The position numbers and the translations under genes are program-made. Shown here piece after piece: positions 6,000-58,068 of a stretch of 61,095 nucleotides of DNA (its first letter is position 1; each line of letters starts with the position of its first letter). Location: the IMG/VR virus record IMGVR_UViG_3300046005_000771, positions 1 through 61,095 of that record; one strand, written 5' to 3'. The notes below the pieces were generated by a model, which ran no database searches, was not told the DNA's origin, and worked only from the letters and a program-made list of their open reading frames with translations. This DNA comes from a virus.

Positions 6000-8681
6000 T
6001 TACTTCTTAGATTTAATAAAGTCCGTTACTTCACCGCCGTGCTTAAATGGTTCAGGCATAGGCAAAGTTACATCAGGAAATGATTGCGGCGCTACGCTAG
6101 GGTTTAGCCCTAGTCGCGCTCTTAATGCGTCTATGTAATCTTCTTTATATTCCCGTGCTTTTTGAGAGGTGAGATTGTAACTAGGTTGCAGTTCAATTAG
6201 TGTTGATTTATCCCCAAGCTTGGCTAAAGCCCTTGTTCTATGTCTTCCTTCATGTCCTGAAATGCGAATACCTCCAGACGCTGCTTCGCTCAAACCTAGA
6301 AAAGGTATTTCTTTTAAACCAGACTCACGCGCAACTTTCGCTAAATAATCAATGTATTCAGCTTGAGTCATTGACGTATCCGGTCCTGAAGCAATTCCCC
6401 TTAATGAATATCCTCTATCTTGTGAATAACCAGGGGGAATAGGGCTTGCGTATTCTTCAAAATATTTAGGGTCTAACACCATTAAGGCCTGCGGATTACT
6501 TCTATCCATCAACAGTCTTTCTAACGCTTTTTCGCTATATTGATTTTCAAGGTTAGGGACCTCATCTGCTGCGCGCTCTGCACGGCGGCCCATGTATTCG
6601 CCTCGTTCATTTTTAACCTTATTAATCAATGCACTAATGCTACCGCGTTCAGGCACAATAATATTTGGGGCGTTTAAATTCTCTGCCTTACTGAGTTCTT
6701 CAAGTGCTTCACGCTTAGCAGATATTTCGTTTAAATCGCCCATGTAAACATAACTGGTGCCTTTTAAATCTGGGTACTCTTCCTCTATAGCCTTTTTAAG
6801 TTTTCTAAAGGCCACTGTTCTACGGCGATTTTTTTCGCCTGTTGTGACTGTATTATCCACTTTAGCTGCATTTAAAAATTCAAAGTTAGGGTCGTCATAT
6901 TTTCTAACCGTTTCATGCAAGTCCCATATTTTTTTAGGTACTCCCTCCGGAGGATGGGCATTAGATAACTCTTTTGCACCTTTTACGTACTTAGTAATGT
7001 TAGGGATCAAAGGTAACGCACCTGCAGCGCCAAGTCCAGCCCCTACGTAGTCTTTATCCTTGAATGCCTGATAGCCTTCTGCTGCGGATTGGATATCACC
7101 TGACACTGGAATAAACGAATTGATAAACAACGCCACGTCCTTGGCACTGATATCCTCGTTCTTTAACCCCTGCATGATAGCGTCAAGGTTTTCTTTGACC
7201 CTGCTCTTTTCAGGCTTGTCTGCTGTTACGTCAATAGATTTAAGGGTTCGGACGTTCTCGCTTGATACGTCTCCTCCGTCTTCAAACTTTTTTGGTTTTT
7301 TAGGCTTTGCAATAGTCTTAGCTTGACCTGACTTGATTGCCTGCAGCGCTTGGTAGGCCATGTCTGCCTTGTCCTTGGACCGTAATCCAATGTCCATGCC
7401 CCGCGCGTCATTGGCCACGTCCATCGCCTGCTCTTCATCTGACTGTCCGCCAGTGAGCCAGTTCTCGTGGATATAGCTTGCAATCTCAGCAGGTGTCCTG
7501 CCGTACTTCTTCGCTATCTGTGCCTGCAACAACATATGACGCATCGCGTCACCACGACCGTCTAGCTGCTCGTCCTTAGGAAAGTAGAACTCAGGGATAG
7601 CATTGGCAAACTTAACCTCTTCGCCAAGGCCTAATAACCCTGCCATCGCTTCCTGGCCTTTACGTCCCCAACGCGCTACGGTATCCGCATACTCATTTGG
7701 ATGGCCTACTTCTTTTTTATTCGTAGGAGTGACGTCGATAGAGCGAAGGGTTCGGTCATTTTCGTTTGCTACTTCACCGCCGTCTTCAAAACGCTTGGTG
7801 TAACGCACGCCAGCATTGTAGTAGTCCTTGCCGTCCTTTTGGGGCACATACACGCCTTCAGCTGACACGTCACTAGTCGGACTCAGCTCCTTACGGATAG
7901 CACCCGTGATCACAGGCTGCTTAGTTTCAGGGTCGTACACATACTGCACTTCGTAATTGCCTATACGACCACGGCCCACGAAACTCGCACCCACTTGACT
8001 TAACCTCTTTCCGCCTACATCCACGTCAGCAAATGCCTGAAAACCGTCCACATCCTTACTCACACGTGTGTCATATTTGCCCTGTCCCCTTGACGAGCGT
8101 ACTTCTTGCACGTCTACAGGGCCCGCTTTGGTACGTGAGTTTTCCAATAAGAACTGTTCAAGGTCCATGGCCCGCGGGTCTTGGCCCGCTACCGCCTCAC
8201 CACCGTCCTCAAACGAGCTTACCCCTGCATGTCCTGCCAAATTATAGGCTTCTGGATTGGCAAAGGCACGGATGCCTCCTACTCTAGCCAATGCCTTATT
8301 CTGCGCTGCCGCAGCCAATTGTGCCTGATAGGCGTTTATATCCAACTCCCCTTGTGCCGTAGGAAGGGTAGGCGCTGTCGGCTCCGCTATGCCAGCATAT
8401 GCAGCCTCTGTTTTCCCTGCATTCCAGTCCGCCACCCACTTATTGTATGCGTCCGAGTATGCAGCATGGTCCGTTGCATACTGATTGTGTGCATTAAAAT
8501 AAGCTTTGTCCTCTGCTTTTAACTTAGGCTTTACGCTTCTTGCTGCCGCATATAACATCCCACCCGTGTCTTCCACTACACCACCTGCCGCCATCTTAGC
8601 TGGCTGACTAATCCCAAGGGATGCATAGGACTGCTGTACACGCTTTTCGTAGTCGTTGTCAAAGGGCAGAGTGTTGTTCAT
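6000..8681 (-). CDS. Large multidomain protein with ParB-like C-terminal segment and DGG-V repeats
   Basis: 893 residues. The N-terminal 150 are Ala/Tyr-rich. Residues about 160-310 contain a beta-rich unit. A near-repeat FEDGGEVANENDRTLRSIDV / FEDGGDVSSENVRTLKSIDV occurs at about residues 297 and 465. Between the copies, about 374-435, is a segment with GRGDAMRHMLLQAQ and VANDARGMDIG, resembling a conserved domain seen in polymorphic toxin-like proteins (low confidence). About 770-832 contains GIRISGHEGRHRTRAL, a ParB/Srx-like nucleotide-binding signature. The C-terminus ends FKHGGEVTDFIKSKK. It lies between terminase and portal, so it is probably packaged or used in assembly; such mosaics resemble polyvalent proteins injected with DNA. 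The function is inferred. Confidence 0.7.
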   Translation of the reverse strand: MNNTLPFDNDYEKRVQQSYASLGISQPAKMAAGGVVEDTGGMLYAAARSVKPKLKAEDKAYFNAHNQYATDHAAYSDAYNKWVADWNAGKTEAAYAGIAEPTAPTLPTAQGELDINAYQAQLAAAAQNKALARVGGIRAFANPEAYNLAGHAGVSSFEDGGEAVAGQDPRAMDLEQFLLENSRTKAGPVDVQEVRSSRGQGKYDTRVSKDVDGFQAFADVDVGGKRLSQVGASFVGRGRIGNYEVQYVYDPETKQPVITGAIRKELSPTSDVSAEGVYVPQKDGKDYYNAGVRYTKRFEDGGEVANENDRTLRSIDVTPTNKKEVGHPNEYADTVARWGRKGQEAMAGLLGLGEEVKFANAIPEFYFPKDEQLDGRGDAMRHMLLQAQIAKKYGRTPAEIASYIHENWLTGGQSDEEQAMDVANDARGMDIGLRSKDKADMAYQALQAIKSGQAKTIAKPKKPKKFEDGGDVSSENVRTLKSIDVTADKPEKSRVKENLDAIMQGLKNEDISAKDVALFINSFIPVSGDIQSAAEGYQAFKDKDYVGAGLGAAGALPLIPNITKYVKGAKELSNAHPPEGVPKKIWDLHETVRKYDDPNFEFLNAAKVDNTVTTGEKNRRRTVAFRKLKKAIEEEYPDLKGTSYVYMGDLNEISAKREALEELSKAENLNAPNIIVPERGSISALINKVKNERGEYMGRRAERAADEVPNLENQYSEKALERLLMDRSNPQALMVLDPKYFEEYASPIPPGYSQDRGYSLRGIASGPDTSMTQAEYIDYLAKVARESGLKEIPFLGLSEAASGGIRISGHEGRHRTRALAKLGDKSTLIELQPSYNLTSQKAREYKEDYIDALRARLGLNPSVAPQSFPDVTLPMPEPFKHGGEVTDFIKSKK

Positions 8682-10392: not shown

Positions 10393-10480
10393 ACGCGGGC
10401 CATGGTTCTAGGGACTCTTCCCCCCTCGCGCCGGCCGCGGTCCATGGACCGGCGACCACGGACCGCGGACCATGAAAAAG

Positions 10481-10696: not shown

Positions 10697-10785
10697 GCAA
10701 TGTGACCAGGCTTTTTTCCGGACACGGGCACCGGCAATCCGGACACGGACCACGGGCAATGTGACCAGGCTTTTTTCCGGACACG
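10697..10785. repeat. Direct repeat, two 30-bp copies
   Basis: An identical 30-bp sequence beginning GCAATGTGACCAGGC, followed by a T tract and CCGGACACG, occurs at 10697-10726 and 10756-10785, 59 bp apart. It immediately follows the second GTTAGT palindrome. It is non-coding, and GC-rich small dyads around it continue to about 10850. It could be an iteron pair of an origin or simply a duplicated spacer. Confidence 0.7.
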
Positions 10786-10978
10786 CGACCGGCCGCGCGT
10801 ATCGCATAGCGGGTCACGCTCCACGGCCCACGGGCCACGCTCCGCTGGCCTAGTTTACATATAGACAGACAGCAAGGGCGGCGGCCAGCCATTGGACGGC
10901 GTAAAGGCGTGCCAGCGCTGTTTAAAGGGCATGCTGGCCGGCATTGGCCGGACTAGGTAACCGGCACGCAAAAAAGCT

Positions 10979-14346: not shown

Positions 14347-14941
14347 ACTTAGCGAGCCTAAGAAAATGCCATGCCATACCTTTAGCACGCCGGCGACGGC
14401 GTGCCATACTGGCCGCAAGCTGGCCGAGATTAAAGGGAGTGTATGCCATGGATGCTATGCCATGAAAGGCAACTACCGTTATAAGAACGTAATGGCCCAC
14501 AGGGAGCATAATTTGAACTCGCTGGGTGACTTACCCTCGTGGACCGCTGGAATGATAGCGGCCATTAAAAGCAACGATACGACCGGCTATTTCAGATGGC
14601 ACGACAGCGGCGATATTCAAAGCGAGGCCCATTTGATGGCTATCATGGACATTGCCGAGGCCATGCCGGAGGTAACATTTTGGCTACCGACGAAAGAGAA
14701 AGGCATGCTGGCCAAGGTAAACCGACAACGAGCCATGCCGGATAATTTAACCGTGCGATTAAGCATGCCAATGCTGGACATGGCGCCAGCTGGCACGTGG
14801 CCAACAACGAGCACCGTTATAACCAAGGCGGGCACCATTGACGGCGTCGAATGCAAGGCGCCAGCTAATAATGGCAAGTGCGGGACATGCCGCGCATGCT
14901 GGGATAAAGCCATTTCAAATGTAACCTACTTAAAACACTAG
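14321..14941 (+). CDS. GP88-family protein (cysteine-rich phage protein)
   Basis: 206 residues from the ATG at 14321, chosen because AAAAGGGAG precedes it; an upstream in-frame ATG at 14294 lacks a ribosome site. It shows clustered Cys: KMPCHTFSTPATACHTGRKL, SVCHGCYAMKG, and a C-terminal CKAPANNGKCGTCRACWD, with a central FRWHDSGDIQSEAHL. This combination matches the family named after mycobacteriophage gene product 88, found in phages and plasmids, whose biochemical role is not established. The Cys pattern suggests metal or Fe-S binding. It is the most conserved-looking unknown of this operon. Confidence 0.8.
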   Translation: MQTIQFMPKLSEPKKMPCHTFSTPATACHTGRKLAEIKGSVCHGCYAMKGNYRYKNVMAHREHNLNSLGDLPSWTAGMIAAIKSNDTTGYFRWHDSGDIQSEAHLMAIMDIAEAMPEVTFWLPTKEKGMLAKVNRQRAMPDNLTVRLSMPMLDMAPAGTWPTTSTVITKAGTIDGVECKAPANNGKCGTCRACWDKAISNVTYLKH

Positions 14942-14957
14942 AAAGCGAGAAAGCAAA

Positions 14958-15973: not shown

Positions 15974-16188
15974 CTAAATACGAAGTGCAAGAGTATTGCC
16001 TTTGTGGCGGCTGGACTAATACATGGAGCGATGACGATGGACCGACTAGGTTCGACAGCGAAGAAAGCGCACGCGCGGAGCTGGACTGGTTTTTTAAAGA
16101 GATGGAAGAAGAGGTAGAGGAAGGCAACATTGAAGACTTTACCGATAGAGAAGACTTTCGAATTGTGGAGGTGCAAGATGACATTTAA
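15970..16188 (+). CDS. Unknown very acidic protein
   Basis: 72 residues from the ATG at 15970, chosen because GGAGGTGTGAT precedes it. It begins MTKYEVQEYCLCGGWTNTW and its middle is highly acidic (KEMEEEVEEGNIEDF). The C-G-W motif is shared with small phage proteins of unknown function. High negative charge would fit a DNA-mimic, but that is only a possibility. Confidence 0.6.
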   Translation: MTKYEVQEYCLCGGWTNTWSDDDGPTRFDSEESARAELDWFFKEMEEEVEEGNIEDFTDREDFRIVEVQDDI

Positions 16189-16318
16189 TGCATACAACCA
16201 TAATGGCACATGCTTAGGCACCTTTGATAATGAGAAAGACGCCTTGGCTTGTGCAAAAGAGTATCGCTATGAAACAGAAAATGCCGCGTATGTAGAGGAG
16301 GTGCTAGATGACATTTGA
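16178..16318 (+). CDS. Unknown small protein
   Basis: 46 residues from the ATG at 16178 after GGAGGTGCAAG (MTFNAYNHNGTCLGTFDNEK). It overlaps the previous gene by 11 bases and the next by 11, with the same ...VDD/LDD-I-stop end as its neighbour, hinting at local duplication. Confidence 0.55.
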   Translation: MTFNAYNHNGTCLGTFDNEKDALACAKEYRYETENAAYVEEVLDDI

Positions 16319-16454
16319 TGAATTAAAAGCCTATGCCGCCAATTTAGGCTATGAGCTTTCAGACGACGATTGCACCGAGATTATATCCACCAGCTACGAT
16401 GGCGAGACCGTGAAAGAGGCCGTTAACGATTTTTTAGATGCATACGAAAGGTAG
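16308..16454 (+). CDS. Unknown small acidic protein
   Basis: 48 residues from the ATG at 16308 after GAGGAGGTGCTAG (MTFDELKAYAANLGYELSDD). Acidic, predicted helical; it shares the MTF start context with the previous gene. No family recognised. Confidence 0.55.
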   Translation: MTFDELKAYAANLGYELSDDDCTEIISTSYDGETVKEAVNDFLDAYER

Positions 16455-16460
16455 ATAACT

Positions 16461-16676
16461 ATGAGCTTTGATTTTGAATATAACGGCTACCTAGTAACGG
16501 CCGATGTGGACGAATGCTACGACGGCTACGGCACCGGAGACAGTCCGACGCTATACGAGGTTAAACTATTGCGAATAGTGGACGAGGAAGGCCTTGCCGT
16601 TCGTTTTAGCGAGCTGGGCAATGGATTCAGCGACAGCCTAGAAGACGAGGCCATACAAATCTATAAAGGTTATTGA
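16461..16676 (+). CDS. Unknown small beta-rich acidic protein
   Basis: 71 residues (MSFDFEYNGYLVTADVDECY), acidic, with predicted strands and a Gly-rich turn (GYGTGDSPTLYEVKLLRI). It is the second-last gene before the operon terminator. Resembles small phage proteins of unknown function. Confidence 0.6.
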   Translation: MSFDFEYNGYLVTADVDECYDGYGTGDSPTLYEVKLLRIVDEEGLAVRFSELGNGFSDSLEDEAIQIYKGY

Positions 16677-16685
16677 TGGCCAGCT

Positions 16686-16844
16686 ATGCCAAGAGAACAC
16701 CCGCACGACCGGCGTCGTCGATTAAGACGCGAGCGAGCAACGATAGTGACCAAACCAGCAGAGCCGGAGTCGCCTATTAAAATTAGCACGATATTCCGAC
16801 TACTATCGATGTTGTTATTTGCAAATATATTTGGAGGGAAATAA
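16686..16844 (+). CDS. Small basic protein with hydrophobic C-terminus
   Basis: 52 residues from the ATG at 16686. The N-terminus is extremely basic (PREHPHDRRRRLRRERATI); the C-terminus is hydrophobic (IFRLLSMLLFANIFGGK). No strong Shine-Dalgarno is seen, so it may be spurious, but it fills the space between the last clear gene and the terminator. Possible membrane-anchored nucleic-acid binder. Confidence 0.4.
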   Translation: MPREHPHDRRRRLRRERATIVTKPAEPESPIKISTIFRLLSMLLFANIFGGK

Positions 16845-16846
16845 AG

Positions 16847-16872
16847 AAGGGGCGCTATGCCCCTTTTCTTTT
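16847..16872 (+). terminator. Rho-independent terminator of the accessory operon
   Basis: A 7-bp stem AAGGGGC / GCCCCTT with loop GCTAT is followed by TTCTTTT on the plus strand. It sits exactly where the plus operon meets the convergent minus-strand nuclease gene, whose stop codon starts at 16873. Confidence 0.8.
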
Positions 16873-17287
16873 ACTCGGTTAAAGCATGCCTAAACATATG
16901 CCATTGCACATGCGACAAGGGCCACTTAGCAGATGGGATGCATTCCACGCCACGCAACAGTAAATCCTCTGCTTGGCCACCGTCATACAGCAATAGCTCG
17001 GCCTTTAGTGCAGATGTTGTGCCGGCCGGATGATACTGCACCAAGATATAAGTGGGACAGCCTAGGCTGGCATGCTTCAGATGGAAGGCGACTTGATGGG
17101 GACTAAGCGCGACTTTTTTACCACGCTTTACCACTTTCAGTTCAACCATTACAAATCTAGTCTTGTTCAGCGCTATCAGGCAATCCGGTATCCCTAGGTT
17201 CACTCTCGATTCTATCCTCGTTATGTGCGCCTCCGGTAGATTCTCCTTCAGTCTTTTGTATAGTCCGGCTTCGGGCTTTATTGCCAT
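16871..17287 (-). CDS. VRR-NUC-like nuclease (PD-(D/E)xK superfamily)
   Basis: 138 residues from the ATG at 17287 (GAGGT eight bases upstream). Catalytic-looking motifs are an N-terminal Glu in IKPEAGLYKRL, then RIESRVNLGIPDCLIAL and FVMVELKVVKRG, the PD...ExK core of the VRR-NUC fold, with a later SPHQVAFH that matches the conserved Q/H region. Members are structure-specific DNA nucleases. Its first 131 bases overlap the small-terminase gene in another frame, and the N-terminal Glu and PD motifs lie at or near that overlap, so it cannot be trimmed away. It probably processes replication or packaging intermediates. Confidence 0.8.
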   Translation of the reverse strand: MAIKPEAGLYKRLKENLPEAHITRIESRVNLGIPDCLIALNKTRFVMVELKVVKRGKKVALSPHQVAFHLKHASLGCPTYILVQYHPAGTTSALKAELLLYDGGQAEDLLLRGVECIPSAKWPLSHVQWHMFRHALTE

Positions 17288-17900
17288 TTTCAATTACCTC
17301 GTTTGCGTCAAATGATGGTTCTACTTCGATCGAACTCTCTACATCGACAGGTTCCATATCAATGATGGTTTGAGGTGGAGCGCCGTAGATGCGTTTAATT
17401 TCCTCAAGCTTACGCATTACTTCGTCTTTACTCATACTATCGATGGTGCCTATACGAACTTCTTTCCTCTCGATGTAGATGGTGCCAAGTGCCTGGCCTC
17501 GACGATATTCAGCCGCTACGGCCGCACCATATGCGCCAGCTTCCAATGCCTTATCCCGTATCAATTGCAAATCCTTCATGTGTCTATCGTAATTGGTGCC
17601 ATACTTTGCATTTATCTCTGCACGATACTCTTGGATGGCGGCCACTACATGTGGGCATATTTCAGGATTGGTCAGCTTCCATGCCGTGACCTTTGCAGAT
17701 TTCTCTGTAAAGCCCGCTCTGATGGCGCACTCTTTCATGGTGACTTGGCCGTCCCCAGATACTAGCTCTTGCACGAACTTCCATTCGCGTCCAGATAGCT
17801 TCTTTTTCTGGCTATACAATGAGCCTACATTACTAGATAGTCTCTTTTGCAATTTATCCCCTAAGATAGGTGGAACATTCCATACGTCTTTCGCGGCCAT
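17157..17900 (-). CDS. terS: Terminase small subunit candidate
   Basis: 247 residues from the ATG at 17900 (GGAGGG upstream; an earlier in-frame ATG lacks a site). The N-terminal 35 residues are linker, then SGREWKFVQELVSGDG, MKECAIRAGFTEKSAKVTAW and KLTNPEI form the helix-turn-helix of the Terminase_2 family. A helical oligomerisation segment (about 110-170) precedes an acidic C-terminal tail, whose last part is read in another frame by the downstream nuclease. It recognises phage DNA for packaging by the large subunit. It overlaps the upstream gene as TAATG. It is unusually remote from terL (about 7 kb, different operon). Confidence 0.8.
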   Translation of the reverse strand: MAAKDVWNVPPILGDKLQKRLSSNVGSLYSQKKKLSGREWKFVQELVSGDGQVTMKECAIRAGFTEKSAKVTAWKLTNPEICPHVVAAIQEYRAEINAKYGTNYDRHMKDLQLIRDKALEAGAYGAAVAAEYRRGQALGTIYIERKEVRIGTIDSMSKDEVMRKLEEIKRIYGAPPQTIIDMEPVDVESSIEVEPSFDANEVIENGNKARSRTIQKTEGESTGGAHNEDRIESEPRDTGLPDSAEQD

Positions 17901-18163
17901 TAGCTTACCCTCCGACAAATCCAAACACTATCGTCTTCCATTGTTTGACGCACAGTAAACCTACGCCCCTTTATCCGTTTATAGAATGATTGAAGGGCAT
18001 ACCGTAGATTGGCCGCTTCCGTCATGGTGTGGACTTCGATGTAATCCCCTATGATCATTCCCTTGAACGGATACTTCGCCCTTCCACTTACGCCGTTATA
18101 TCGTATGACATGCTTTCTAGGTGTTATACCTGTCATTCTTACTTCTACGTCTTTCAATGGCAT
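17900..18163 (-). CDS. Unknown basic protein upstream of terS
   Basis: 87 residues, basic (Arg/Lys-rich), beginning MPLKDVEVRMTGITPRKHVI and ending TMEDDSVWICRRVS. The alternation suggests a small beta-barrel, possibly nucleic-acid-binding. GAGGGG lies upstream of the ATG; the stop overlaps the terS start (TAATG). It is first in a three-gene unit with terS and the nuclease, suggesting a packaging or recombination role. Confidence 0.6.
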   Translation of the reverse strand: MPLKDVEVRMTGITPRKHVIRYNGVSGRAKYPFKGMIIGDYIEVHTMTEAANLRYALQSFYKRIKGRRFTVRQTMEDDSVWICRRVS

Positions 18164-18193
18164 TTCTTTGCCCCTCTATTAAAGTATGTAGAT

Positions 18194-18222
18194 AGTATAC
18201 TATGATAAAGTACTGTAATCAA
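18194..18222 (-). promoter_or_regulatory. Sigma70-type promoter for the terS operon
   Basis: Reading leftward: TTGATT (18222-18217), a 17-bp spacer, TATACT (18199-18194). The -10 lies in the palindrome TAGTATACTA. The start codon of the first gene is 31 bases downstream. A 17-bp spacer and 5/6 -10 match make this a good candidate. Confidence 0.65.
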
Positions 18223-18237
18223 TAGCAGGCATTTAAT

Positions 18238-18282
18238 CAATTATTCAATCCTATATAGTAGACGTCTTGAAAAAAAAGTGAA
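18238..18282 (+). repeat. 45-bp inverted repeat, left arm
   Basis: Its complement lies at 18561-18605 with 41 of 45 positions matching. It contains CTATATAGTAGACGT and ends in an A8 tract plus GTGAA. The arms enclose 278 bp. No transposase is encoded inside. Confidence 0.85.
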
Positions 18283-18408
18283 AAAAAAAATTAAAGGTCC
18301 TCGCGCGCAACCCCCTAGTAAATTTGCTGTTATTGCCTATTTTTTAATCAACTTTTTAAAATACTCTCTGATAATTCCCTATAAAAACCCCTTTTTTACC
18401 CTTTTTGC

Positions 18409-18536
18409 CATTACGTCTGTGAACAAAAAGTACCCATTACGCCATTACGTCTGTGATATTTCAACGTAATGGTGTAACGTAATAGATATGTCATTGATAT
18501 TACTAAGTAATCTCGACCATTACGTCTGATTACGGT
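18409..18536. repeat. Iterons CATTACGTCTG
   Basis: CATTACGTCTG occurs three times on the plus strand, near 18410, 18441 and 18519, with partial copies CCATTACGCC near 18433 and the reverse-complement core ACGTAATGG near 18463, followed by AACGTAATAG. Two full copies are followed by TGA. Spacing is irregular (about 31 and 78 bp). Confidence 0.75.
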
Positions 18537-18560
18537 ACTTTTCGTTAAAAAAAAAATCAA

Positions 18561-18605
18561 TTCACTTTTTTTTCAAAACGTCTACTATATAGAATCAAAT
18601 AATTG
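18561..18605 (-). repeat. 45-bp inverted repeat, right arm
   Basis: Reverse complement of 18238-18282 with four mismatches, three of them within the outer 13 bases. Confidence 0.85.
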
Positions 18606-18771
18606 CTCCGTGGTCCATGATCCGTGCACCTTTCTCCCCTCTCCCCCACCACCCTCCAAGACCCGCGCTCCGTGGCTTTCCAGCCATCCACCCTTTCCCC
18701 TTTCCCCTCAAAAATCCCCTTAAAACTGCCATTACGGCAAATTTTCGATTTTTCCGAAAAAGTACCTACAT

Positions 18772-18796
18772 AAAAAAAAGAGACCCGAAGGTCTCT
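18772..18796 (-). terminator. Rho-independent terminator (UUCG loop)
   Basis: On the minus strand: AGAGACC, TTCG tetraloop, GGTCTCT, then T8. It ends the minus-strand run of small genes beginning to its right and insulates the iteron region. The same UUCG design is used after the capsid gene at 60294. Confidence 0.9.
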
Positions 18797-18864
18797 ATAA
18801 AGTCATTCATTTATTTAAGTACGGGATTGAGGTACTTTACTGTTCCATATTTCCAATCTCACAT

Positions 18865-19077
18865 TTAGTGCACGGTATTGTTCAAATAATGCATTAAAGA
18901 TGCGACGACGTGTTTTGCGAGGACAAATTCACCGAATTCTAGGTCTTCGATCACGCCAACCTCTTCGTCATCGGGGACCATAGGAGGGCCGAAAAGGGTA
19001 TAAGTTTGTCCGTCGATGGTAATCCTTACCACCTGCATTAGATGTGCGTCGCCGTTCTTGTCATTATTGTCTGCCAT
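18865..19077 (-). CDS. Unknown small protein
   Basis: 70 residues, acidic, with a beta hairpin-like VVRITIDGQTYTLFGPPMV and helical C-terminus. It is the last gene before the terminator. No family recognised. Confidence 0.65.
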   Translation of the reverse strand: MADNNDKNGDAHLMQVVRITIDGQTYTLFGPPMVPDDEEVGVIEDLEFGEFVLAKHVVASLMHYLNNTVH

Positions 19078-19101
19078 TCCTATATAGTAGTATGTTTTGT
19101 C

Positions 19102-19398
19102 TTATTTGTCCGTACTGTCTTCTACAAATTCCACAAGGGCGTTGATATACCATTGTGCTTTCTTTAAATCCTTGAGTGTATCGTCTTTAAGTCCGGCGCG
19201 GGATAGGTACTTGAGTGCGGATAAGCGTAGGTGCCCCCTGAATTCCTCAGGGGTGGACTTGGCCTCCATGTAATCTATCGTTTCGATCCCTCCGCTGGTG
19301 TAGTGCGGTGGGCTGTTGATAAGGTCTTTTGTTGATGGAGAAGATTTCTTAAGCCACTCTTTCATTTCTTCTGCTGTCATTTCTATTATGTTACTCAT
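19102..19398 (-). CDS. DUF3310 family protein (nucleotide kinase-like)
   Basis: 98 residues. The core NSPPHYTSGGIETIDYMEAK, then RLSALKYLSRAGLKDDTLKDLKKAQWYI matches DUF3310, a short family present in many phages and often annotated 'nucleotide kinase' after phage SaV-type proteins; no P-loop is visible, so kinase activity is doubtful. It overlaps the upstream gene by eight bases. Confidence 0.8.
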   Translation of the reverse strand: MSNIIEMTAEEMKEWLKKSSPSTKDLINSPPHYTSGGIETIDYMEAKSTPEEFRGHLRLSALKYLSRAGLKDDTLKDLKKAQWYINALVEFVEDSTDK

Positions 19399-19645
19399 AT
19401 TGCTCCTCTTCCTTGTCTGCTTCTACGGCCGCCGCAAGGTCGACCAGTAATCTGTCCCAAATGGTTTGTTTAAAGTCGTCTGGGTATTCATTCCAGGCCT
19501 TGAAGTATTCGACGTCCGGACGGAAGCCGTAAGCGTCTTTATAAAGGTCGGACAATAGGTCACTGTCGAAGGTATGTGCCATTGATTCCATAACGATATC
19601 TTTTAAGATCGTACGGGTAATACGATTCTCTGAATCACTCATCAT
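19391..19645 (-). CDS. Unknown acidic protein
   Basis: 84 residues (MMSDSENRITRTILKDIVME), helical, aromatic-rich middle (YGFRPDVEYFKAWNEYPDDF), acidic end. It lies directly upstream of the DUF3310 gene. The start could be either of two adjacent ATGs. Confidence 0.6.
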   Translation of the reverse strand: MMSDSENRITRTILKDIVMESMAHTFDSDLLSDLYKDAYGFRPDVEYFKAWNEYPDDFKQTIWDRLLVDLAAAVEADKEEEQYE

Positions 19646-19652
19646 TGTTCTC

Positions 19653-19871
19653 CTATGAATACGATTCTGCGATCATGTCTTGTTTAAGTATTTCCAGTGC
19701 ACCTAATTTGCGCTCGATGTCTTTATATCCGCTGTAGGATAGTTTAAGGGTGCCGTCTTTGACGCCGATAATGAATACCTCATCAAATCCGTAGTCGATG
19801 GCGGCCTGTAGGCGATCGTTTACAAGGTTCTTTTCACTGGCCGTGGGCAGTGAAGCTAGTTTAATGGCCAT
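19653..19871 (-). CDS. Unknown small protein
   Basis: 72 residues (MAIKLASLPTASEKNLVNDR), with a central strand-turn-strand EVFIIGVKDGTLKLSYSGY and helical end. It overlaps the upstream gene by 16 bases. No family recognised. Confidence 0.6.
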   Translation of the reverse strand: MAIKLASLPTASEKNLVNDRLQAAIDYGFDEVFIIGVKDGTLKLSYSGYKDIERKLGALEILKQDMIAESYS

Positions 19872-20224
19872 GTGTTCTTTTCCTTTAATGCTTGTTCAAT
19901 AGCTTTGGCAAAGTCATCAACGTACACATTACATTCTGTTCCATATTCACCTTCATCAAACAATTCGTAATCAACGTGCAAGTATTTTAAATGACTTAGT
20001 TCATCATCCGTTAATCCTTGCCATGCTGGTTGTTCTAGCGCATCTTTAAACTCAATATCCCTAGCAATGCGTTCGTCTATGGTATGTTTCCAATCCCTTG
20101 TTAGGGGTTGTTCTAGTGCTTCTCTGCAAAGTTCTTTGTAGTTTTTATCAAGTATGTTGTATTTAAGAACTAAATCCTTATAATTTTTTTGAATTAGGTC
20201 TAGTTTTTCTTTATCTGAAATCAT
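19856..20224 (-). CDS. Unknown protein with ALEQP motifs
   Basis: 122 residues; the N-terminal 35 form a Lys/Asp/Asn-rich coiled coil (LIQKNYKDLVLKYNILDKNY). It contains REALEQPLTRDW and KDALEQPAWQG, the same short motif as the next upstream gene (KEALEQPT). Coupled to that gene by ATGA. Multi-copy ALEQP motifs are common in small phage proteins of unknown function. Confidence 0.65.
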   Translation of the reverse strand: MISDKEKLDLIQKNYKDLVLKYNILDKNYKELCREALEQPLTRDWKHTIDERIARDIEFKDALEQPAWQGLTDDELSHLKYLHVDYELFDEGEYGTECNVYVDDFAKAIEQALKEKNTWPLN

Positions 20225-20394
20225 TTTTTATGCCCTTCTGGATTGACTGGTCTATCAACATTTCTGTACAAATCATAATCAATGTTTGACGTTGGTTGTT
20301 CTAGTGCTTCTTTGCAAGCCTTAACTGCCTTTGTATGGTCTGTTCCATATAGCAACGCTTTAATCGCCATCTTTAATGCTTTGTCTTTAGTCAT
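20221..20394 (-). CDS. Small ALEQP-motif protein
   Basis: 57 residues from an ATG at 20394 (an adjacent ATG at 20397 is also possible). Sequence starts MTKDKALKMAIKALLYG and contains CKEALEQPTSNID. The start overlaps the upstream stop and the stop overlaps the next start (ATGA), a tight coupled chain. Confidence 0.6.
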   Translation of the reverse strand: MTKDKALKMAIKALLYGTDHTKAVKACKEALEQPTSNIDYDLYRNVDRPVNPEGHKK

Positions 20395-20647
20395 CATCCA
20401 CCTCTAATTTAATTTTGCCTAAGTATGGCCCATATTGTTTAAATGTTATGTTTCCGTTTTCTAGCCAACCATATACATTTATATACTGTGGCTCTTTAGG
20501 CTGTGGTTTAATGCGGTATGCAAAACCATCCCAAAATGGTGTACCTTTTACCTCATACCATCTGCCATTTTTATCTTGTGCTTCAATCTCCGCACCATCA
20601 GCCCATGCTTTAATTTCTTTGTGCCATTTATGTTGCTTAGTCATCAT
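20387..20647 (-). CDS. Conserved small phage protein (KWHKEIKAWADGAEI family)
   Basis: 86 residues. HKWHKEIKAWADGAEIEAQD, then GRWYEVKGTPFWDGFAYRIKP is a pattern I recognise from many small phage proteins of unknown function. It has a beta-rich centre and an acidic end. It overlaps neighbouring genes on both sides. Confidence 0.7.
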   Translation of the reverse strand: MMTKQHKWHKEIKAWADGAEIEAQDKNGRWYEVKGTPFWDGFAYRIKPQPKEPQYINVYGWLENGNITFKQYGPYLGKIKLEVDDD

Positions 20648-20828
20648 TGTTCTCCTTCAATAGGAAATGAGGCGTGGGCCGTGGTAAACGGACGACGTTA
20701 TTTGAATGAAGTAAGTATTTGCTACCCATTTGCTCCTTGAGCCGTGCAACTTTGCTCTCGCGTAACGCGATAGCGGCATGAAGTTCGGCATCGGGCAATT
20801 GCACACGTGCTAAGTCTATTAGATACAT
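20637..20828 (-). CDS. Unknown small protein
   Basis: 63 residues from the ATG at 20828, preceded by AAAGGAAAATACC (MYLIDLARVQLPDAELHAAI). Amphipathic helix first, basic-proline-rich end (VVRLPRPTPHFLLK). First gene of the leftward small-gene run after the 38-residue membrane peptide. Confidence 0.55.
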   Translation of the reverse strand: MYLIDLARVQLPDAELHAAIALRESKVARLKEQMGSKYLLHSNNVVRLPRPTPHFLLKENNDD

Positions 20829-20901
20829 GGTATTTTCCTTTTCTAACTTTCTGATGAACATAATTCGCCCCAATAATCAGGTTTGAGCAACTAGAATACC
20901 A

Positions 20902-21018
20902 TTATCTATGATTTTGTAAAGCTTTTTCAGCAAAAGTATATGAAACAAGTATACCAAACGACACGCCGAGTAAAAATGCTTCTTTGTAGCACAGGTAATA
21001 ATCGAGGATTTCAGTCAT
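20902..21018 (-). CDS. 38-residue single-span membrane peptide
   Basis: From the ATG at 21018 with an AAGGTG ribosome site: MTEILDYYLCYKEAFLLGV, then SFGILVSYTFAEKAL, one membrane helix and a short basic tail. The first gene left of the HNH gene. Function unknown; small phage membrane peptides often target host envelope processes. Confidence 0.5.
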   Translation of the reverse strand: MTEILDYYLCYKEAFLLGVSFGILVSYTFAEKALQNHR

Positions 21019-21057
21019 TTTTCACCTTGGTAGGATATTTACCATATTTACCATATT

Positions 21058-21086
21058 TTGCATATTAATACGATAAATGTTATAAA
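21058..21086 (+). promoter_or_regulatory. Sigma70-type promoter for the HNH gene
   Basis: TTGCAT at 21058-21063, 17-bp spacer, TATAAA at 21081-21086 on the plus strand, about 29 bases before the HNH start. Just upstream, TTTACCATAT is directly repeated (21039-21058). Confidence 0.65.
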
Positions 21087-21114
21087 GAGTCTTTCTGTAA
21101 GGGTATATTCTACT

Positions 21115-21486
21115 ATGCCGATCAAAGATCCGGAAGAACGAAGACTAAAACAACGGCAGTATTCAAGCAAGCACTACCATTCCAACAGGGAAGCGCACAT
21201 CGAGCGCATACGTTTGCAGAAGATTCGTATGCGGGCCGAGTGGGAAGAGTATAAGTCTACCTTGGAGTGCGTGCAGTGTGGACAGAATCATCCGGCCACG
21301 TTGGACTTCCACCATGTTATCAAAGATCCCGCCAATAGAAAGGTAAGTGAATTGACCCAAAACGGGGCATACAAGCTTGCCCGTGCGGAGATCGAGGCGA
21401 AGTGCGTGGTGTTGTGTGCCAGCTGTCACCGGATATGGCACCATGAAGAGCGCCAGATGAAGGAAGGAAGTTTTTTAGAGCGCTAA
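21115..21486 (+). CDS. HNH endonuclease, free-standing
   Basis: 123 residues from the ATG at 21115. A basic N-terminal helix region (ERRLKQRQYSSKHYH) precedes the HNH core: LECVQCGQNHPATLDFHHVI (Cys pair plus DFHH) and VVLCASCHRIWHHEE (second Cys pair plus His). It is a metal-dependent DNA nuclease of the ββα-metal type. It is encoded against the direction of all its neighbours and carries its own promoter, as expected of a free-standing homing-type endonuclease. No intron is seen. Confidence 0.9.
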   Translation: MPIKDPEERRLKQRQYSSKHYHSNREAHIERIRLQKIRMRAEWEEYKSTLECVQCGQNHPATLDFHHVIKDPANRKVSELTQNGAYKLARAEIEAKCVVLCASCHRIWHHEERQMKEGSFLER

Positions 21487-21846
21487 GTGTAAACCATGGT
21501 ATACAATAGGGCAGTTGTGTTGCCGATAAGTAACAGGTTTTAGTTCAAAACTAAACTAAAAGTGTAGACCTACGCAAATAATTAAACTCAAAAACTGTAT
21601 ATACACACGATGTGTATACAAAACGCCAAAAAATATACACGTTATCAAAACGTGTATACAAAACGCCAAAAAATATACACGTTATCAAAACGTGTATAAA
21701 ATGTCTAAACAAATGTCTAAACTAATAGTTTAGTTCTGAGTAACATATATGTTACCTTAACCTATTTAAAGCGACTTTTATGAATCACTTTGCAAGATAG
21801 TCGCGACTGTTTTAAAGTCGGCTACGATCGTAGTATTTGTAGCTAC
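21487..21846. other. Intergenic region with dyads and tandem repeats
   Basis: 360 bp without a gene. It holds AAACTAAACTAAA repeats (21547-21562), the tandem 40-bp repeat at 21611-21700, two AAATGTCTAAAC copies near 21698-21722, and palindromes such as CTACGATCGTAG (21821-21832). It lies between the HNH gene and the pqqA terminator and looks like an operator or origin array. Confidence 0.6.
21611..21700. repeat. Tandem 40-bp repeat with internal dyads
   Basis: The 40-bp block at 21621-21660 is repeated at 21661-21700 with one mismatch, and the preceding ten bases extend the pattern by a quarter unit. Each junction contains TATACACG, 9 bases, CGTGTATA, an 8-bp-arm dyad, so two identical protein-binding sites lie exactly 40 bp apart (near four helical turns). 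Confidence 0.85.
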
Positions 21847-21876
21847 AAAAAACCCCGCGTAGTCTCCTAGGCGGGG
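21847..21876 (-). terminator. Rho-independent terminator of pqqA
   Basis: On the minus strand CCCCGC, a 12-base loop, GCGGGG, then T6. The stem begins 22 bases after the pqqA stop, so transcription of the little gene is terminated directly behind it. Confidence 0.85.
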
Positions 21877-21898
21877 TGTGTATATACAATGTATATAC

Positions 21899-21970
21899 TT
21901 ATTTGTTCATTACGTACATTGTCACTTCGAAGCCAAAGCGCATTTCAGTTGCAGCTGGAGTTGTCCACAT
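21899..21970 (-). CDS. pqqA: PqqA: pyrroloquinoline quinone precursor peptide
   Basis: 23 residues, starting MWTTPAATEMRFGFEVTMY and ending VMNK. It matches cellular PqqA (recalled Pseudomonas type: MWTKPAYTDLRIGFEVTMY) at most positions, with the same length class and the Glu15-x3-Tyr19 pair that the radical-SAM enzyme PqqE crosslinks, bound by PqqD, to build PQQ. PqqA is the substrate, consumed one per cofactor. Start: ATG at 21970 with AAGGA eight bases upstream. The gene has its own terminator and a dyad-rich leader and lies last after small early genes. No pqqB, C, D or E occurs in the genome, so host enzymes must process it. Too short for usual gene finders. Confidence 0.92.
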   Translation of the reverse strand: MWTTPAATEMRFGFEVTMYVMNK

Positions 21971-21978
21971 GATGTTAG

Positions 21979-22041
21979 TCCTTAATATATATTAAGCAAA
22001 AGTGCTTGTGTGTAATAATCCGCCAAATACTACACACAAGC
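21979..22041 (-). promoter_or_regulatory. Dyad-rich leader of pqqA
   Basis: Two structures lie between the upstream gene and pqqA. GCTTGTGTGTA (22004-22014) and TACACACAAGC (22031-22041) are perfect 11-bp arms 16 bp apart: an operator or RNA hairpin. The 16-bp palindrome CTTAATATATATTAAG (21981-21996) overlaps the AAGGA ribosome site (21979-21983), so a weak RNA hairpin could mask it. No confident -35/-10 pair was found. Confidence 0.65.
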
Positions 22042-22077
22042 CATACGGATAATCATTAATCGCAAAAAAGTGATACA

Positions 22078-22161
22078 TTACTTAGCCAACTTCTTAGCGT
22101 TCTCTTTCATCTTACTAAGTATCAATAAGAAGCGTAGCTCTTCCATTTCGGCTTCGGTCAT
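22078..22161 (-). CDS. 27-residue unknown peptide
   Basis: From the ATG at 22161 (AGGGAGAAGTGT upstream): MTEAEMEELRFLLILSKMKE then NAKKLAK. An amphipathic helix, acidic at the start and basic at the end. It overlaps the upstream membrane-protein gene as ATGA, which together with a strong ribosome site supports translation. Confidence 0.55.
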   Translation of the reverse strand: MTEAEMEELRFLLILSKMKENAKKLAK

Positions 22162-22376
22162 ACACTTCTCCCTATATAAGTTGCCTTAACGTTATCTTTG
22201 AACTGCAAAGTCACAGCGCACTCTTGCCCTTTGTTTCCATTAAAAAGTTTATAAACTCCAAATCCCATAGCAAGAATTGCAATGGTCAGTAGGGTCGCCA
22301 CGATTACTACGGCTCTATCTCCACTACGATCGCACTGGCAATCACGCCCTTGGTTGCACTGTTGGCTACACGGCAT
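22158..22376 (-). CDS. Small membrane protein with Cys-rich N-terminus
   Basis: 72 residues. The N-terminal 15 hold four Cys (MPCSQQCNQGRDCQCDRSGD), then one membrane helix (VVIVATLLTIAILAMGFGVY) and a 30-residue polar tail. Its start overlaps the previous gene's end. A Cys cluster beside a membrane span could bind metal; function unknown. Confidence 0.65.
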   Translation of the reverse strand: MPCSQQCNQGRDCQCDRSGDRAVVIVATLLTIAILAMGFGVYKLFNGNKGQECAVTLQFKDNVKATYIGRSV

Positions 22377-22518
22377 CTTCGTTCTCCTTTTCCACAGGTT
22401 TAGGCGTGTCGTCTAGCTTGACTGACCAGTCGATCTCACCGTAATTCTTGTCAAACTTGTCGTTCTCGTTTACTTTAGACTGGATTTTGTCTCCAGTGAT
22501 ATCGTTACGGGCTACCAT
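22366..22518 (-). CDS. Small conserved phage protein (ARNDITGD family)
   Basis: 50 residues from the ATG at 22518: MVARNDITGDKIQSKVNEN and further charged residues. The N-terminal ARNDITGD-I-SK pattern is one I recognise in short phage proteins of unknown function. It overlaps its neighbours by 7 and 11 bases. Confidence 0.65.
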   Translation of the reverse strand: MVARNDITGDKIQSKVNENDKFDKNYGEIDWSVKLDDTPKPVEKENEDAV

Positions 22519-22769
22519 TGCATCTCTCCTATCTCTTCTACACTAAAAGGATCCACCTCTTCGGTACTATCCTCTTTAAGCGTATAGTATTCTTTCAAGG
22601 CGTCCTCGTGCAGGCCCGCGAGCCGTGAGAATTTAAACGCGTACACTTGCGCAAAAGACATCAACAATGAAGCTGGAATCGCTTCTTCTGATTCTGCCAT
22701 AGCACGTAGGTCATCCACGACCATCCAACAATCCATAATGCTTTCTTCCATATCTGTATATACACTCAT
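22512..22769 (-). CDS. Unknown acidic helical protein
   Basis: 85 residues (MSVYTDMEESIMDCWMVVDD), helical, ending in an acidic EEVDPFSVEEIGEMQW. AAGGAGCAAAAA is a clear ribosome site for the ATG at 22769. Confidence 0.65.
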   Translation of the reverse strand: MSVYTDMEESIMDCWMVVDDLRAMAESEEAIPASLLMSFAQVYAFKFSRLAGLHEDALKEYYTLKEDSTEEVDPFSVEEIGEMQW

Positions 22770-22799
22770 TTTTTGCTCCTTAAGCTCATTTTGTTCTCC

Positions 22800-22958
22800 T
22801 TAAAGGTCGTTCGCTATTTCAAGTTCGACGATGTCTATTTCCGTCAACTTGTCATTGGGTAGTTTTACCATTGCAGTAGTAGGGAAGTGACCCACACTAA
22901 TTACTTCAACAACACATTCACCCTTTTGCCACCACATCCATTGATACAAATGATTCAT
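22800..22958 (-). CDS. Small unknown protein
   Basis: 52 residues from the ATG at 22958: MNHLYQWMWWQKGECVVEVI, then VGHFPTTAMVKLPND and an acidic end. Compact beta-like pattern with Trp-rich start. No clear Shine-Dalgarno, so confidence is moderate. Confidence 0.5.
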   Translation of the reverse strand: MNHLYQWMWWQKGECVVEVISVGHFPTTAMVKLPNDKLTEIDIVELEIANDL

Positions 22959-22975
22959 TTTATTTATCTGCATAA

Positions 22976-23155
22976 TTAGTCTCTCTTTCCATTTGCCGCG
23001 TCGCGGGCATCTCGTTCGGCTTCTTTTTGAAACCGTATGTATATATTCTCAATAAGAATTCCAATAGATAGATAGTCAGGATCGTGCATACCTTTAACAA
23101 TGCCCGCCACTGTCTGCCCAAAGGCCTCTGCGTTCTTTTCATCTAGTTTATCCAT
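22976..23155 (-). CDS. Unknown small protein
   Basis: 59 residues from the ATG at 23155 (MDKLDEKNAEAFGQTVAGIV), which overlaps the upstream stop as TAATG. Helical, with a charged tail (KEAERDARDAANGKRD). An upstream in-frame TTG was discounted. Confidence 0.55.
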   Translation of the reverse strand: MDKLDEKNAEAFGQTVAGIVKGMHDPDYLSIGILIENIYIRFQKEAERDARDAANGKRD

Positions 23156-23685
23156 TACCAATTCCCAAACATAATCATACTGCTACCCATGGCCACGCCC
23201 GAATTGCGGCGGCTTTTCTCTTCCTTCCTCAAGGCAAAGTCCTTTTGAGACCGGCGGCTGTTGTAGTAGATAGTCGTATGTTCATCCACCTTCACGACCA
23301 CAGGGTCTACACGCGATGCTTTTGGCACATGGTCTACGTTATCCGTGGTCCGTGGTCCTTGAGCCGCGCGCTTTTCACGGTTCTTCTTATTCGCATCCGC
23401 ACGAGCCCTGATAGCAGATAGGTCTTTACCTACAAAAGGCCTCTTCCCTATCGTAAAACTGCACATGGATCGCTTGGCTATGCTACACAGGGCATGATCA
23501 TCTGCTATTTTTATGTACTCCTGCTCTAGAAGACCTTTAAGCAGGTTGTGCATTTGCATTTTAGAGATGTCCAGGACATTGCCTAACTCATTACGGGTCA
23601 TGGCCCGTGACTTGAGTATGCTTATGATCTTCACTTTATTCAATTCTGATTCAATGAAGATATCAGTACGTGACTTGGTGACCAT
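23155..23685 (-). CDS. Winged helix-turn-helix regulator candidate
   Basis: 176 residues from the ATG at 23685, preceded by AAGGAAAGGAAAAAAC. Residues about 18-70 form a winged helix: IISILKSRAMTRNELGNVLD, SKMQMHNLLKGLLEQEYI, then a wing. The C-terminal 100 residues are basic and Arg/Lys/Asn-rich. A MarR/ArsR-like DNA-binding protein, a candidate regulator of early genes or of the repeat arrays nearby. It may act at the TATACACG dyads beside pqqA, but this is speculation. Confidence 0.65.
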   Translation of the reverse strand: MVTKSRTDIFIESELNKVKIISILKSRAMTRNELGNVLDISKMQMHNLLKGLLEQEYIKIADDHALCSIAKRSMCSFTIGKRPFVGKDLSAIRARADANKKNREKRAAQGPRTTDNVDHVPKASRVDPVVVKVDEHTTIYYNSRRSQKDFALRKEEKSRRNSGVAMGSSMIMFGNW

Positions 23686-23851
23686 GTTTTTTCCTTTCCT
23701 TAAGCATTGCATCCGCTTGAATATACGCGAGCTCTGCACAAGTGCTGGCGCTGTAGTTTTCCTGAAACATCAGGCCTACCATTGCGCCTATCGCGAACAA
23801 GTCACGATAGTTTAAATCATCTACATCATCTTTTGGGGTCTTTGCTGTCAT
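23663..23851 (-). CDS. Small conserved unknown protein
   Basis: 62 residues from the ATG at 23851 (AAGAAGAGATAC upstream): MTAKTPKDDVDDLNYRDLFA then IGAMVGLMFQENYSAS. The DYFAxxAMxG-like helix pattern (alternating acidic start, Ala/Gly/Met helix) is common in small phage proteins. It overlaps the next gene by 23 bases. Confidence 0.65.
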   Translation of the reverse strand: MTAKTPKDDVDDLNYRDLFAIGAMVGLMFQENYSASTCAELAYIQADAMLKERKKHGHQVTY

Positions 23852-23951
23852 GTATCTCTTCTTTTTTATCTTTATGTTGAGGGTCAGGCGTGGCTCCAAT
23901 GCCTGCAAGCCCTATAATTAGTCCGATTAATGCTGATAGGGCGTAACTCAT
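23826..23951 (-). CDS. 41-residue membrane or secreted peptide
   Basis: From the ATG at 23951: MSYALSALIGLIIGLAGIGA, then a charged tail (DPQHKDKKEEIHDSK). A hydrophobic Gly/Leu/Ile helix without positive N-terminus. It is coupled to the upstream gene by ATGA and overlaps the next. Confidence 0.5.
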   Translation of the reverse strand: MSYALSALIGLIIGLAGIGATPDPQHKDKKEEIHDSKDPKR

Positions 23952-24178
23952 GATGGGTCCTTAGGCTTAAAAAACTCTGCTTCGTTGATGATAGGCTTAG
24001 AAGTGGCTGTTTTAAACCATTCTATTTGCTCATGCAGGCCTTCAAACGAGTCAGACATGATAGAAGCTTCTGAATAGCCGTTAGGATTGCCTTCTTTATC
24101 GTAAAATACCTCTTTTATCTCAAAGTATTCGCCCATTTCTTCATCATTAAAGCGTACTACACGGTGATTCCAGGTCAT
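23948..24178 (-). CDS. Conserved small phage protein
   Basis: 76 residues: MTWNHRVVRFNDEEMGEYFE, then IKEVFYDKEGNPNGYSE. The WNHRV...EVYYDE-G-P-GYSE pattern recurs in many small bacterial and phage proteins of unknown function. Overlaps both neighbours as ATGA-type junctions. Confidence 0.7.
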   Translation of the reverse strand: MTWNHRVVRFNDEEMGEYFEIKEVFYDKEGNPNGYSEASIMSDSFEGLHEQIEWFKTATSKPIINEAEFFKPKDPS

Positions 24179-31289: not shown

Positions 31290-31614
31290 CTATTTCTCCT
31301 TTCTTGGGGAACAAATCAACCTGAATTGGAATGTAACGTTTTTCTAGTTTATCCCATTTCAAGCACTTAAATCTACCATTATTTTTACTCGCTGCAATAG
31401 CGCTGATGATTCCAATGGCAGTAGGATCACCTATAAAGAGGAGATAATCCTCATCTGTAAACTTTTCTAACTTACGCTGTATTCTACGAACAGTAGGATA
31501 CACTGAAAAAGCAATTTGCGCATTAGGCGGCAGAATTGTTTCTATGTCTCCATAGTTTAAAGCAGACGTAATGTTATGTGAACCCGTCTCAGAGACGACA
31601 AAAACTGTTGGCAC
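31267..31614 (-). CDS. Unknown protein, first gene of the replication operon
   Basis: 115 residues starting at a GTG at 31614 (AAAGGGAGAAATATA upstream), beginning PTVFVVSETGSHNITSAL. Alpha/beta layout like a Rossmann-type nucleotide-binding core with GDPTAIGIISAIAA. Small proteins of this type are found at the head of replication operons in aquatic phages; function unknown. Confidence 0.6.
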   Translation of the reverse strand: MPTVFVVSETGSHNITSALNYGDIETILPPNAQIAFSVYPTVRRIQRKLEKFTDEDYLLFIGDPTAIGIISAIAASKNNGRFKCLKWDKLEKRYIPIQVDLFPKKGEIDEFDEYI

Positions 31615-56820: not shown

Positions 56821-57495
56821 TTAATATCCCATTACGTCTGGTACAAAGTGGGCGCTTGCGGTATCCCTATCCTCTGCCGCTGCACGTGCGAACTCTTCTT
56901 CATATAGCGCTTTTAAAGCGGGCGTACGATCAGGAGTAAATTTAAGGGACAAGTAGTAAGCCAATCCAGCAGCTAGACAAGGCAAGAAACGGAAATTAAC
57001 ATCCGCTGTATTGGAGTATTCCCCCGCATCGTCCATTCGTTTAATACGATAGTACCTAAGTTGATATAAATTGGAGGCACTAGGCGTTGGGTACAGGTAT
57101 ACTTTAGGAATGTTGGTACGTTCCACATATAACTGGGCAGGCCTTGCCTGTGTTGATTTATCTGGTATGTGCAAATACTCTGCACGACTAATCCTATCAA
57201 TTACAATGTCTACAGAAGGGCTTTGGGACAAATCTCTGATAACGGCTGAAAGCACGTTTACAGTATCCGTATCCAATACCACTTCTATTTGACCGACCGT
57301 CAGGTTAGCTGTTGCAAGTTCAATAGTCCAAAGGTTCAGGCCACGATTTGCCCACTCTAAAAACATTAGATTGAGTGAACGACGAGCTGTTTTGAGCTGA
57401 TTACCGTTGGTCATTTGCATGCCGCAACGTTCAAAAGATTCTTCTATAAGCTCGTCGATCTGTAGATCAAATATCGTGGTACCTGAAGTAGCCAT
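56821..57495 (-). CDS. Head completion / tail accessory protein, P22 gp4-like
   Basis: 224 residues. DLQIDELIEESFERCGMQMT, then TARRSLNLMFLEWANRGLNL and a C-terminal LPCLAAGLAYYLSLKF, the helical layout of the adaptor family. P22 gp4 binds the portal and starts the tail. Follows the basic repeat protein directly (one base). Confidence 0.75.
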   Translation of the reverse strand: MATSGTTIFDLQIDELIEESFERCGMQMTNGNQLKTARRSLNLMFLEWANRGLNLWTIELATANLTVGQIEVVLDTDTVNVLSAVIRDLSQSPSVDIVIDRISRAEYLHIPDKSTQARPAQLYVERTNIPKVYLYPTPSASNLYQLRYYRIKRMDDAGEYSNTADVNFRFLPCLAAGLAYYLSLKFTPDRTPALKALYEEEFARAAAEDRDTASAHFVPDVMGY

Positions 57496-58068
57496 TTAGC
57501 AGGCGCCACCTTTTTTCATTTTTTTAGGGTGTTTTTTACCCTTCATCATAGTGCCGTCAGGCATCATGTGATAGCCTGCTTTTACATTACCGCCGTCTTT
57601 CATGCCCATGCCTTTTTTTGCTGCTACTGCTGCTTTTGTTACTGCTTTACGCAAAAGCCCACTGCCTTGATTTGGGGCAGTTGCAGGCATGCCTTTAATA
57701 GCTTTTGCTGCTGCACGCATAAACCCACTGCCTTGACTTGGGGCAGTTGCAGGCATGTCTTTAGTAACTTGTTGTGCTGCTGCACGGAAAAGCCCACTGC
57801 CTTTTTTTGGAGCAGTTGCAGGCATGTCTTTAGTAACTTGTTGTGCTGCTTGCGCAACTTTACGCATGACTCCACCAAATGCCATTTTCACAGGACTACC
57901 GCCATCTTTCAAACCCATAGCCATGCGTTTGCGAGGACTTACGTCACCACCGTCCGCTAAAAACACAGGACCCGTAGTTTTACTTGTTTGTGATACCATT
58001 TTATTGCGGGAGCCTTTTTCAACACAACCACCACCAGCAGTTGCTGCACCCATACCTTTTCCAGCCAT
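57496..58068 (-). CDS. Basic virion protein with 23-residue tandem repeats and DGG motifs
   Basis: 190 residues, basic. Three consecutive 23-residue units (AQQVTKDMPATAPKKGSGLF type). FLADGGDVSPRKRMAMGLKD and MGMKDGGNVKAGYHMM carry the recurrent DGG motif, and the C-terminus is Lys-rich (GKKHPKKMKKGGAC). Probably packaged or capsid-interior; repeats suggest recent expansion. Confidence 0.7.
   Translation of the reverse strand: MAGKGMGAATAGGGCVEKGSRNKMVSQTSKTTGPVFLADGGDVSPRKRMAMGLKDGGSPVKMAFGGVMRKVAQAAQQVTKDMPATAPKKGSGLFRAAAQQVTKDMPATAPSQGSGFMRAAAKAIKGMPATAPNQGSGLLRKAVTKAAVAAKKGMGMKDGGNVKAGYHMMPDGTMMKGKKHPKKMKKGGAC

Follow-up and report, generated by a model that had tools for sequence, protein, structure and literature searches.

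A non-coding element of inverted arms and iterons beside terS, a candidate packaging-initiation site in phages of the HTVC023P/DSL-LC04 group

What is a non-coding, single-copy site of about 370 bases, built of inverted arms and iterons, doing beside the small terminase gene of a water phage? The site lies in a 61,095-nucleotide stretch of DNA (the window) from an uncultured member of the HTVC023P/DSL-LC04 group. Its record, a circular-type assembly, looks complete, with 127 bases repeated at both ends, and encodes TerL, a portal protein, PolA, a UvrD-like helicase, an AEP-type primase and TerS. A nucleotide search in phage records gave no match, and the closest annotated genomes to the window are DSL-LC04, 023Pt_psg01, HTVC027P and HTVC023P. 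Between the TerL and portal genes, an 893-aa protein (6000-8681) has DUF6973 as its sole domain; its DSL-LC04 counterpart, in the same place, is annotated as PcfJ-like. Three tandem repeats of 66-69 bp each occupy 57639-57850 in the structural-gene region, and a 40-bp unit shaped as a terminator-like hairpin (GTATACACG...CGTGTATAT) is exactly repeated in tandem, as two copies, within a non-coding stretch at 21612-21701.

Anatomy of the element and its neighbouring genes

An original prediction, made from the window alone, described a long inverted repeat that encloses iterons and no gene, and we could reproduce each of these features. The arms, each 45 nt long, are 91% complementary and 278 nt apart, and they find each other with E = 7.8e-10 when the window is compared with itself by BLAST. 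Between them lie three exact copies of CATTACGTCTG, with partial copies (CATTACG/CGTAATG) in both orientations; beyond the interval, the full iteron occurs twice in 61 kb, at 56830 and, on the opposite strand, at 31563. The one open reading frame of at least 50 aa in the interval, a 63-aa frame at 18278-18469, lacks the signs of a gene. The element had also been placed between the terS promoter and the terminator of a run of small genes. A terminator-like hairpin is indeed present, while the promoter amounts to a consensus match (TTGATT-17-TATACT, 18222-18194) in the interval that separates the proximal arm from sm87, and such matches are not enriched in the region, with 12 found in 16000-24000 against 19.1 expected from shuffles. 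The operon of sm87 and terS starts at 18163. Coordinates are collected in Table 1.

Table 1. Positions in the window of the parts of the element and of adjoining features
Feature	Position	Strand	Remarks
terS-proximal arm	18238..18282	.	contains CTATATAG and AGACGT; A-tract on inner side
terS-distal arm	18561..18605	.	41/45 complementary to proximal arm
Iteron CAGACGTAATG (CATTACGTCTG on +)	18409..18419	-	
Iteron CAGACGTAATG	18443..18453	-	tandem with CGTAATG at 18435-18441
Iteron CAGACGTAATG	18518..18528	-	
Opposite-orientation iteron ACGTAATGG	18464..18472	+	second partial copy at 18478-18484; inverted pair
Central IHF-like site TATCAATGACATA	18487..18499	-	one mismatch to WATCAANNNNTTR
GC box, AGGGGGTTGCGCGCGAG on terS strand	18300..18317 (about)	-	ACGGGGTGCGCGCGCG in many relatives
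sm87, conserved 87-aa protein gene	17900..18163	-	usually between element and terS
terS, small terminase subunit	17157..17900	-	SF6/SPP1-type DNA-binding domain
Intrinsic-terminator-like hairpin	18779..18796	-	closes upstream small-gene run

The original prediction did not mention the conserved GC box or the IHF-like site, nor that other phages share the complete design. The corresponding IHF-like site of a sister lineage, TATCAATGACTTA, matches the consensus perfectly. Among all 120-bp segments of the window, one inside the element ranks second in predicted curvature, calculated with wedge parameters; the element of HTVC027P contains the most curved 120-bp segment of the stretch examined there. 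An Rfam scan gave no match. Repeats of the ATGGACCACGGACCACGG type occur in the window at 10435-10472, 10717-10793, 18605-18628 and 23340-23358. In about half of the lineages they touch the outer side of the terS-distal arm, and they are also found elsewhere in the genomes.

The profile of the adjacent TerS matches the DNA-binding domain of the SF6 small terminase (4zc3, 3zqp and 2cmp; E 2e-7 to 1e-6), and a Foldseek comparison of its fold returned 4zc3/2cmp with a probability of 0.99 and an E value of only 0.35. The sm87 family, whose members have 87 residues, has invariant P32, F33, M36, D40, W81 and R85. Its model is an alpha-beta fold (pLDDT 87.5) rather than a helix-turn-helix (HTH), a fold search gave no convincing match, and no known family was found for it. 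A weak profile match to the N-terminal domain of PylRS (E 0.04) is probably due to chance. Two lineages (L272 and L274) have, by eye, a different small HTH-like frame in place of sm87, about 100-500 bp upstream of terS.

Conservation and matched change beside terS

Lack of conservation had been set beforehand as the result that would count against the element. We compared the relatives of TerS taken from IMG/VR and found that the architecture is kept beside terS throughout the group. The conserved design consists of an outer arm with CTATA(T)AG, an A/T tract, tandem and inverted iterons, often a CGCGCG box, and a second arm. In 33 of 43 distinct regions upstream of terS, the inverted repeat exceeds those of all 40 shuffles, and 24 of these 33 have TATA in both arms. 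A scan for the box ACGGGGTGCGCGCGCG returned 66 stretches, nearly all of which contain a matching arm pair once GC-rich false matches and contigs cut at the box are set aside. Wherever a GC-box locus has an arm pair and its sequence extends far enough to the right, terS lies on that side, at a distance of 0.1-0.7 kb, and this link holds with or without sm87; in one genome (G018) the element directly abuts terS. The arms of the DSL-LC04 element are at 20554-20597 and 20729-20773, and the design also appears in contigs of bacterial bins and in distant members of the group.

The design varies across the group. In the 023Pt group terS is reversed and the element, with TGGCACA iterons and weak arms, lies beyond its 3' side. 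By eye, we assigned a diverged element in HTVC027P to 14739-14953 of MN698241, and iterons (CTAGGAAA) without arms to HTVC023P. The genomes with a reversed terS (the 023Pt group and HTVC027P) still have the element within about 1 kb of the gene. Among more distant phages, we did not see the element in Pag-Yong1 and did not find the inverted repeat in CRP-902. A sister clade (L007-L017), whose TerS proteins are 91-97% identical, has lost one arm and kept the iterons and the GC box, so the arms are not indispensable. A perfect IHF consensus occurs in 11 of 48 elements, compared to 1.4 expected, an excess limited to some lineages.

The arms differ among lineages, yet they match within each genome. 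When each left arm was scored against its own and foreign right arms, the mean was 33.5 for own pairs and 18.7 for crossed pairs, and none of 10,000 permutations, which ignore tree structure, reached the own-pair score. Masking A/T runs left the scores at 32.1 and 20.8, respectively. Some left-arm windows missed the arm, a bias that runs against the own-pair result. In one clade, a third, internal copy in reversed orientation has the same variable base as both arms, and one lineage (L072) retains a mismatched arm pair. These two observations led us to reject hairpin pairing between the arms, and they fit shared recognition better. Arms and a third copy that change together would be expected if one DNA-binding protein recognized all of these sites. 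Because the design recurs beside terS in many related phages with matching changes in both arms, we regard it as a real control site. We conclude that the original prediction described a genuine feature, which is spread more widely than could be seen from the window alone.

Packaging, replication or regulation

An origin of replication, a packaging (pac) site and a large operator had all been suggested for this locus. We favor the packaging site, with the origin and the operator as less probable alternatives. The likeliest reading, to which we give about an even chance, is that the element is a pac-like site for the initiation of packaging and a candidate recognition site for the terminase. 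In its favor are the constant link to terS, a TerS of the SF6/SPP1 type and a layout that resembles cosB and pac. A cis site at or near terS and a TerS of the appropriate kind are present. Repeats and predicted curvature are seen as well, and the repeats may flank a cleavage region.

The element might work as follows. Ring-shaped TerS, alone or with a host bending protein, would bind the iteron arrays, the arms or both across a bend, and the bound protein would fold the DNA and bring the two halves of the element together. Headful packaging would then start from a first cut that the large terminase makes in the concatemer, perhaps close to the GC box. With the element upstream of the terS operon, bound TerS might in addition control the operon that encodes it, as it does in SPP1.

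Assemblies pass through the element and wrap around, which agrees with permuted headful DNA or DNA with terminal repeats, and with both better than with simple cohesive ends. One contig of 67,995 bp (G005, of lineage L107) contains terS twice, 63.6 kb apart, and thus wraps by about 4.4 kb. A simple or lambda-type cos site was rejected, as full-length contigs contain the element internally and have no assembly end there; cohesive ends of the simple kind are therefore unlikely. At the element we saw no clear excess of contig ends: 12 of 53 starts fall within 500 bp of terS (non-significant by estimate). Two contigs, from L063 and L041, begin at one identical base by the GC box.

Several observations weigh against a packaging function. 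terS and PolA, 5-11 kb apart, belong to one largely syntenic block, so the adjacency of terS to the element may partly be plain synteny and is not proof, and iteron divergence follows that of PolA as well as that of TerS. In vitro, the binding of DNA by SF6/SPP1 TerS is weak and not sequence-specific, and bent DNA has been proposed as the source of specificity (PMC4737164); such binding fits poorly with specific sites that co-vary. The arm missing from the L007-L017 clade also marks that part as dispensable. Additionally, iterons and AT-rich DNA are equally typical of origins, and SPP1 oriR is likewise non-coding, with iterons and AT-rich DNA (PMC6316719). At an origin, an initiator would bind the iterons, the A/T tracts would melt, and the arms would either be further binding sites of this protein or determine which way the fork is assembled. 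This is a possible but rather unlikely function, for which SPP1 oriR would be a fitting model. The element is single-copy, has tandem and inverted iterons of 7-11 bp by long A/T tracts and an IHF-like site, and in many genomes lies where the replication module meets the packaging module. It shares direct repeats, AT-richness and a non-coding character with SPP1 oriR/oriL and iteron origins. Unlike these, it has no recognizable initiator among the proteins scanned (a scan that covered part of the small genes and could miss a diverged initiator), and it stays with packaging rather than replication genes: it keeps with terS, while PolA is 5-11 kb off and, in G018, inverted relative to it. GC skew, which the original prediction had proposed as a check, tracks gene orientation without a switch at the element and lends no support to an origin.

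We consider it improbable that the element is a large operator of the terS (late) operon, at which a phage regulator would loop the arms and switch the promoter between the proximal arm and sm87. That interval does contain the promoter-consensus match, two genomes (G017 and G020) have, by eye, an HTH-like frame instead of sm87 between element and terS, and multiple co-varying sites suit a DNA-binding regulator. SPP1 offers a precedent, as its TerS, gp1, acts in packaging and also represses its own synthesis and operon (PMC6316719). However, the element far exceeds the usual size of an operator, the predicted fold of sm87 is not an HTH, and in 023Pt-type genomes and HTVC027P the element lies upstream of small genes that face terS, not upstream of terS, with its architecture kept. 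The reversed terS of the 023Pt group thus disfavors a pure terS operator. Control of the late operon could possibly coexist with a pac function, as it does in SPP1.

Very unlikely, in our view, is a pair of inverted terminase nick sites formed by the arms, with the 130-280 bp between them as a short direct terminal repeat of a linear genome, which fill-in would duplicate once the strands had been nicked in a staggered way. In favor of this reading are the inverted orientation, which nicks staggered across the two strands would need, the CTATAG close to the outer end of each arm, and the circular-looking assemblies, which collapsed terminal repeats also yield. Against this, contig ends are not enriched at the arm borders, the L007-L017 clade has dispensed with one arm, and TerS is akin to those of headful phages. 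Least probable of all, to the point of being nearly negligible, are a MITE-like mobile element, an invertible switch and a divergent pair of promoters for a phage RNA polymerase. A short non-coding segment flanked by long imperfect inverted repeats would suit any of these, and CTATAG, which the arm ends resemble, is part of the T7 and SP6 promoters. The position beside terS is nevertheless fixed although the sequence changes. A mobile element was rejected because the arm core occurs, in the whole viral collection, at this locus only, in two near-identical contigs. The interior keeps a constant orientation across all lineages read, which rejects an invertible segment. T7-like promoters were rejected as well, with no further copies and no RNA polymerase among 40 proteins scanned with PHROGs or the unknowns scanned with Pfam.

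Relation to known packaging sites

The P1 pac site consists of hexamer arrays around an IHF site. It resembles the element in having two arrays of short repeats around an IHF-like center, and differs in that it is not known to have inverted arms or a GC box and in the type of its TerS. SPP1 pac overlaps the late promoters and the 5' end of terS, and gp1 binds pacL and pacR on either side of the cut (PMC6316719). Like the SPP1/SF6 site (pacL-pacC-pacR), the element lies 5' of terS at a putative late promoter, with repeated boxes flanking a center, bent DNA (predicted here) and the same type of TerS domain. Unlike it, the element has large inverted arms, many short iterons in two orientations and a GC box, it is often separated from terS by the sm87 gene, and binding and cleavage are putative. 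In lambda cosB, an IHF site is flanked by R sites for TerS in either orientation (PMC4669245). The element resembles lambda cos (cosQ-cosN-cosB) in its putative TerS sites in both orientations around an IHF-like site, its GC-rich core and its place beside terS; the two-orientation iterons are accompanied by an IHF consensus in the 11-of-48 subset only. Unlike lambda cos, it has its GC box on the terS side of the iterons and a TerS of the SF6/SPP1 type. In function the element would best be called pac-like, without assignment to the SPP1 pac family.

We tentatively suggest, as a rather unlikely possibility, that this is a new architecture for a terminase site. Fast-evolving, matching inverted arms and an internal third copy would surround the iterons, one co-evolving DNA-binding protein would recognize them, and the start of packaging may be combined with a start of replication or a short terminal repeat. 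If true, the new architecture belongs to an abundant group of aquatic phages. How TerS recognizes pac is a disputed question (PMC9611059), and natural sites that vary among lineages, including the diverged one in the cultured phage HTVC027P, would make this recognition directly testable. The predicted cis site also provides a defined sequence that may be used in annotation.
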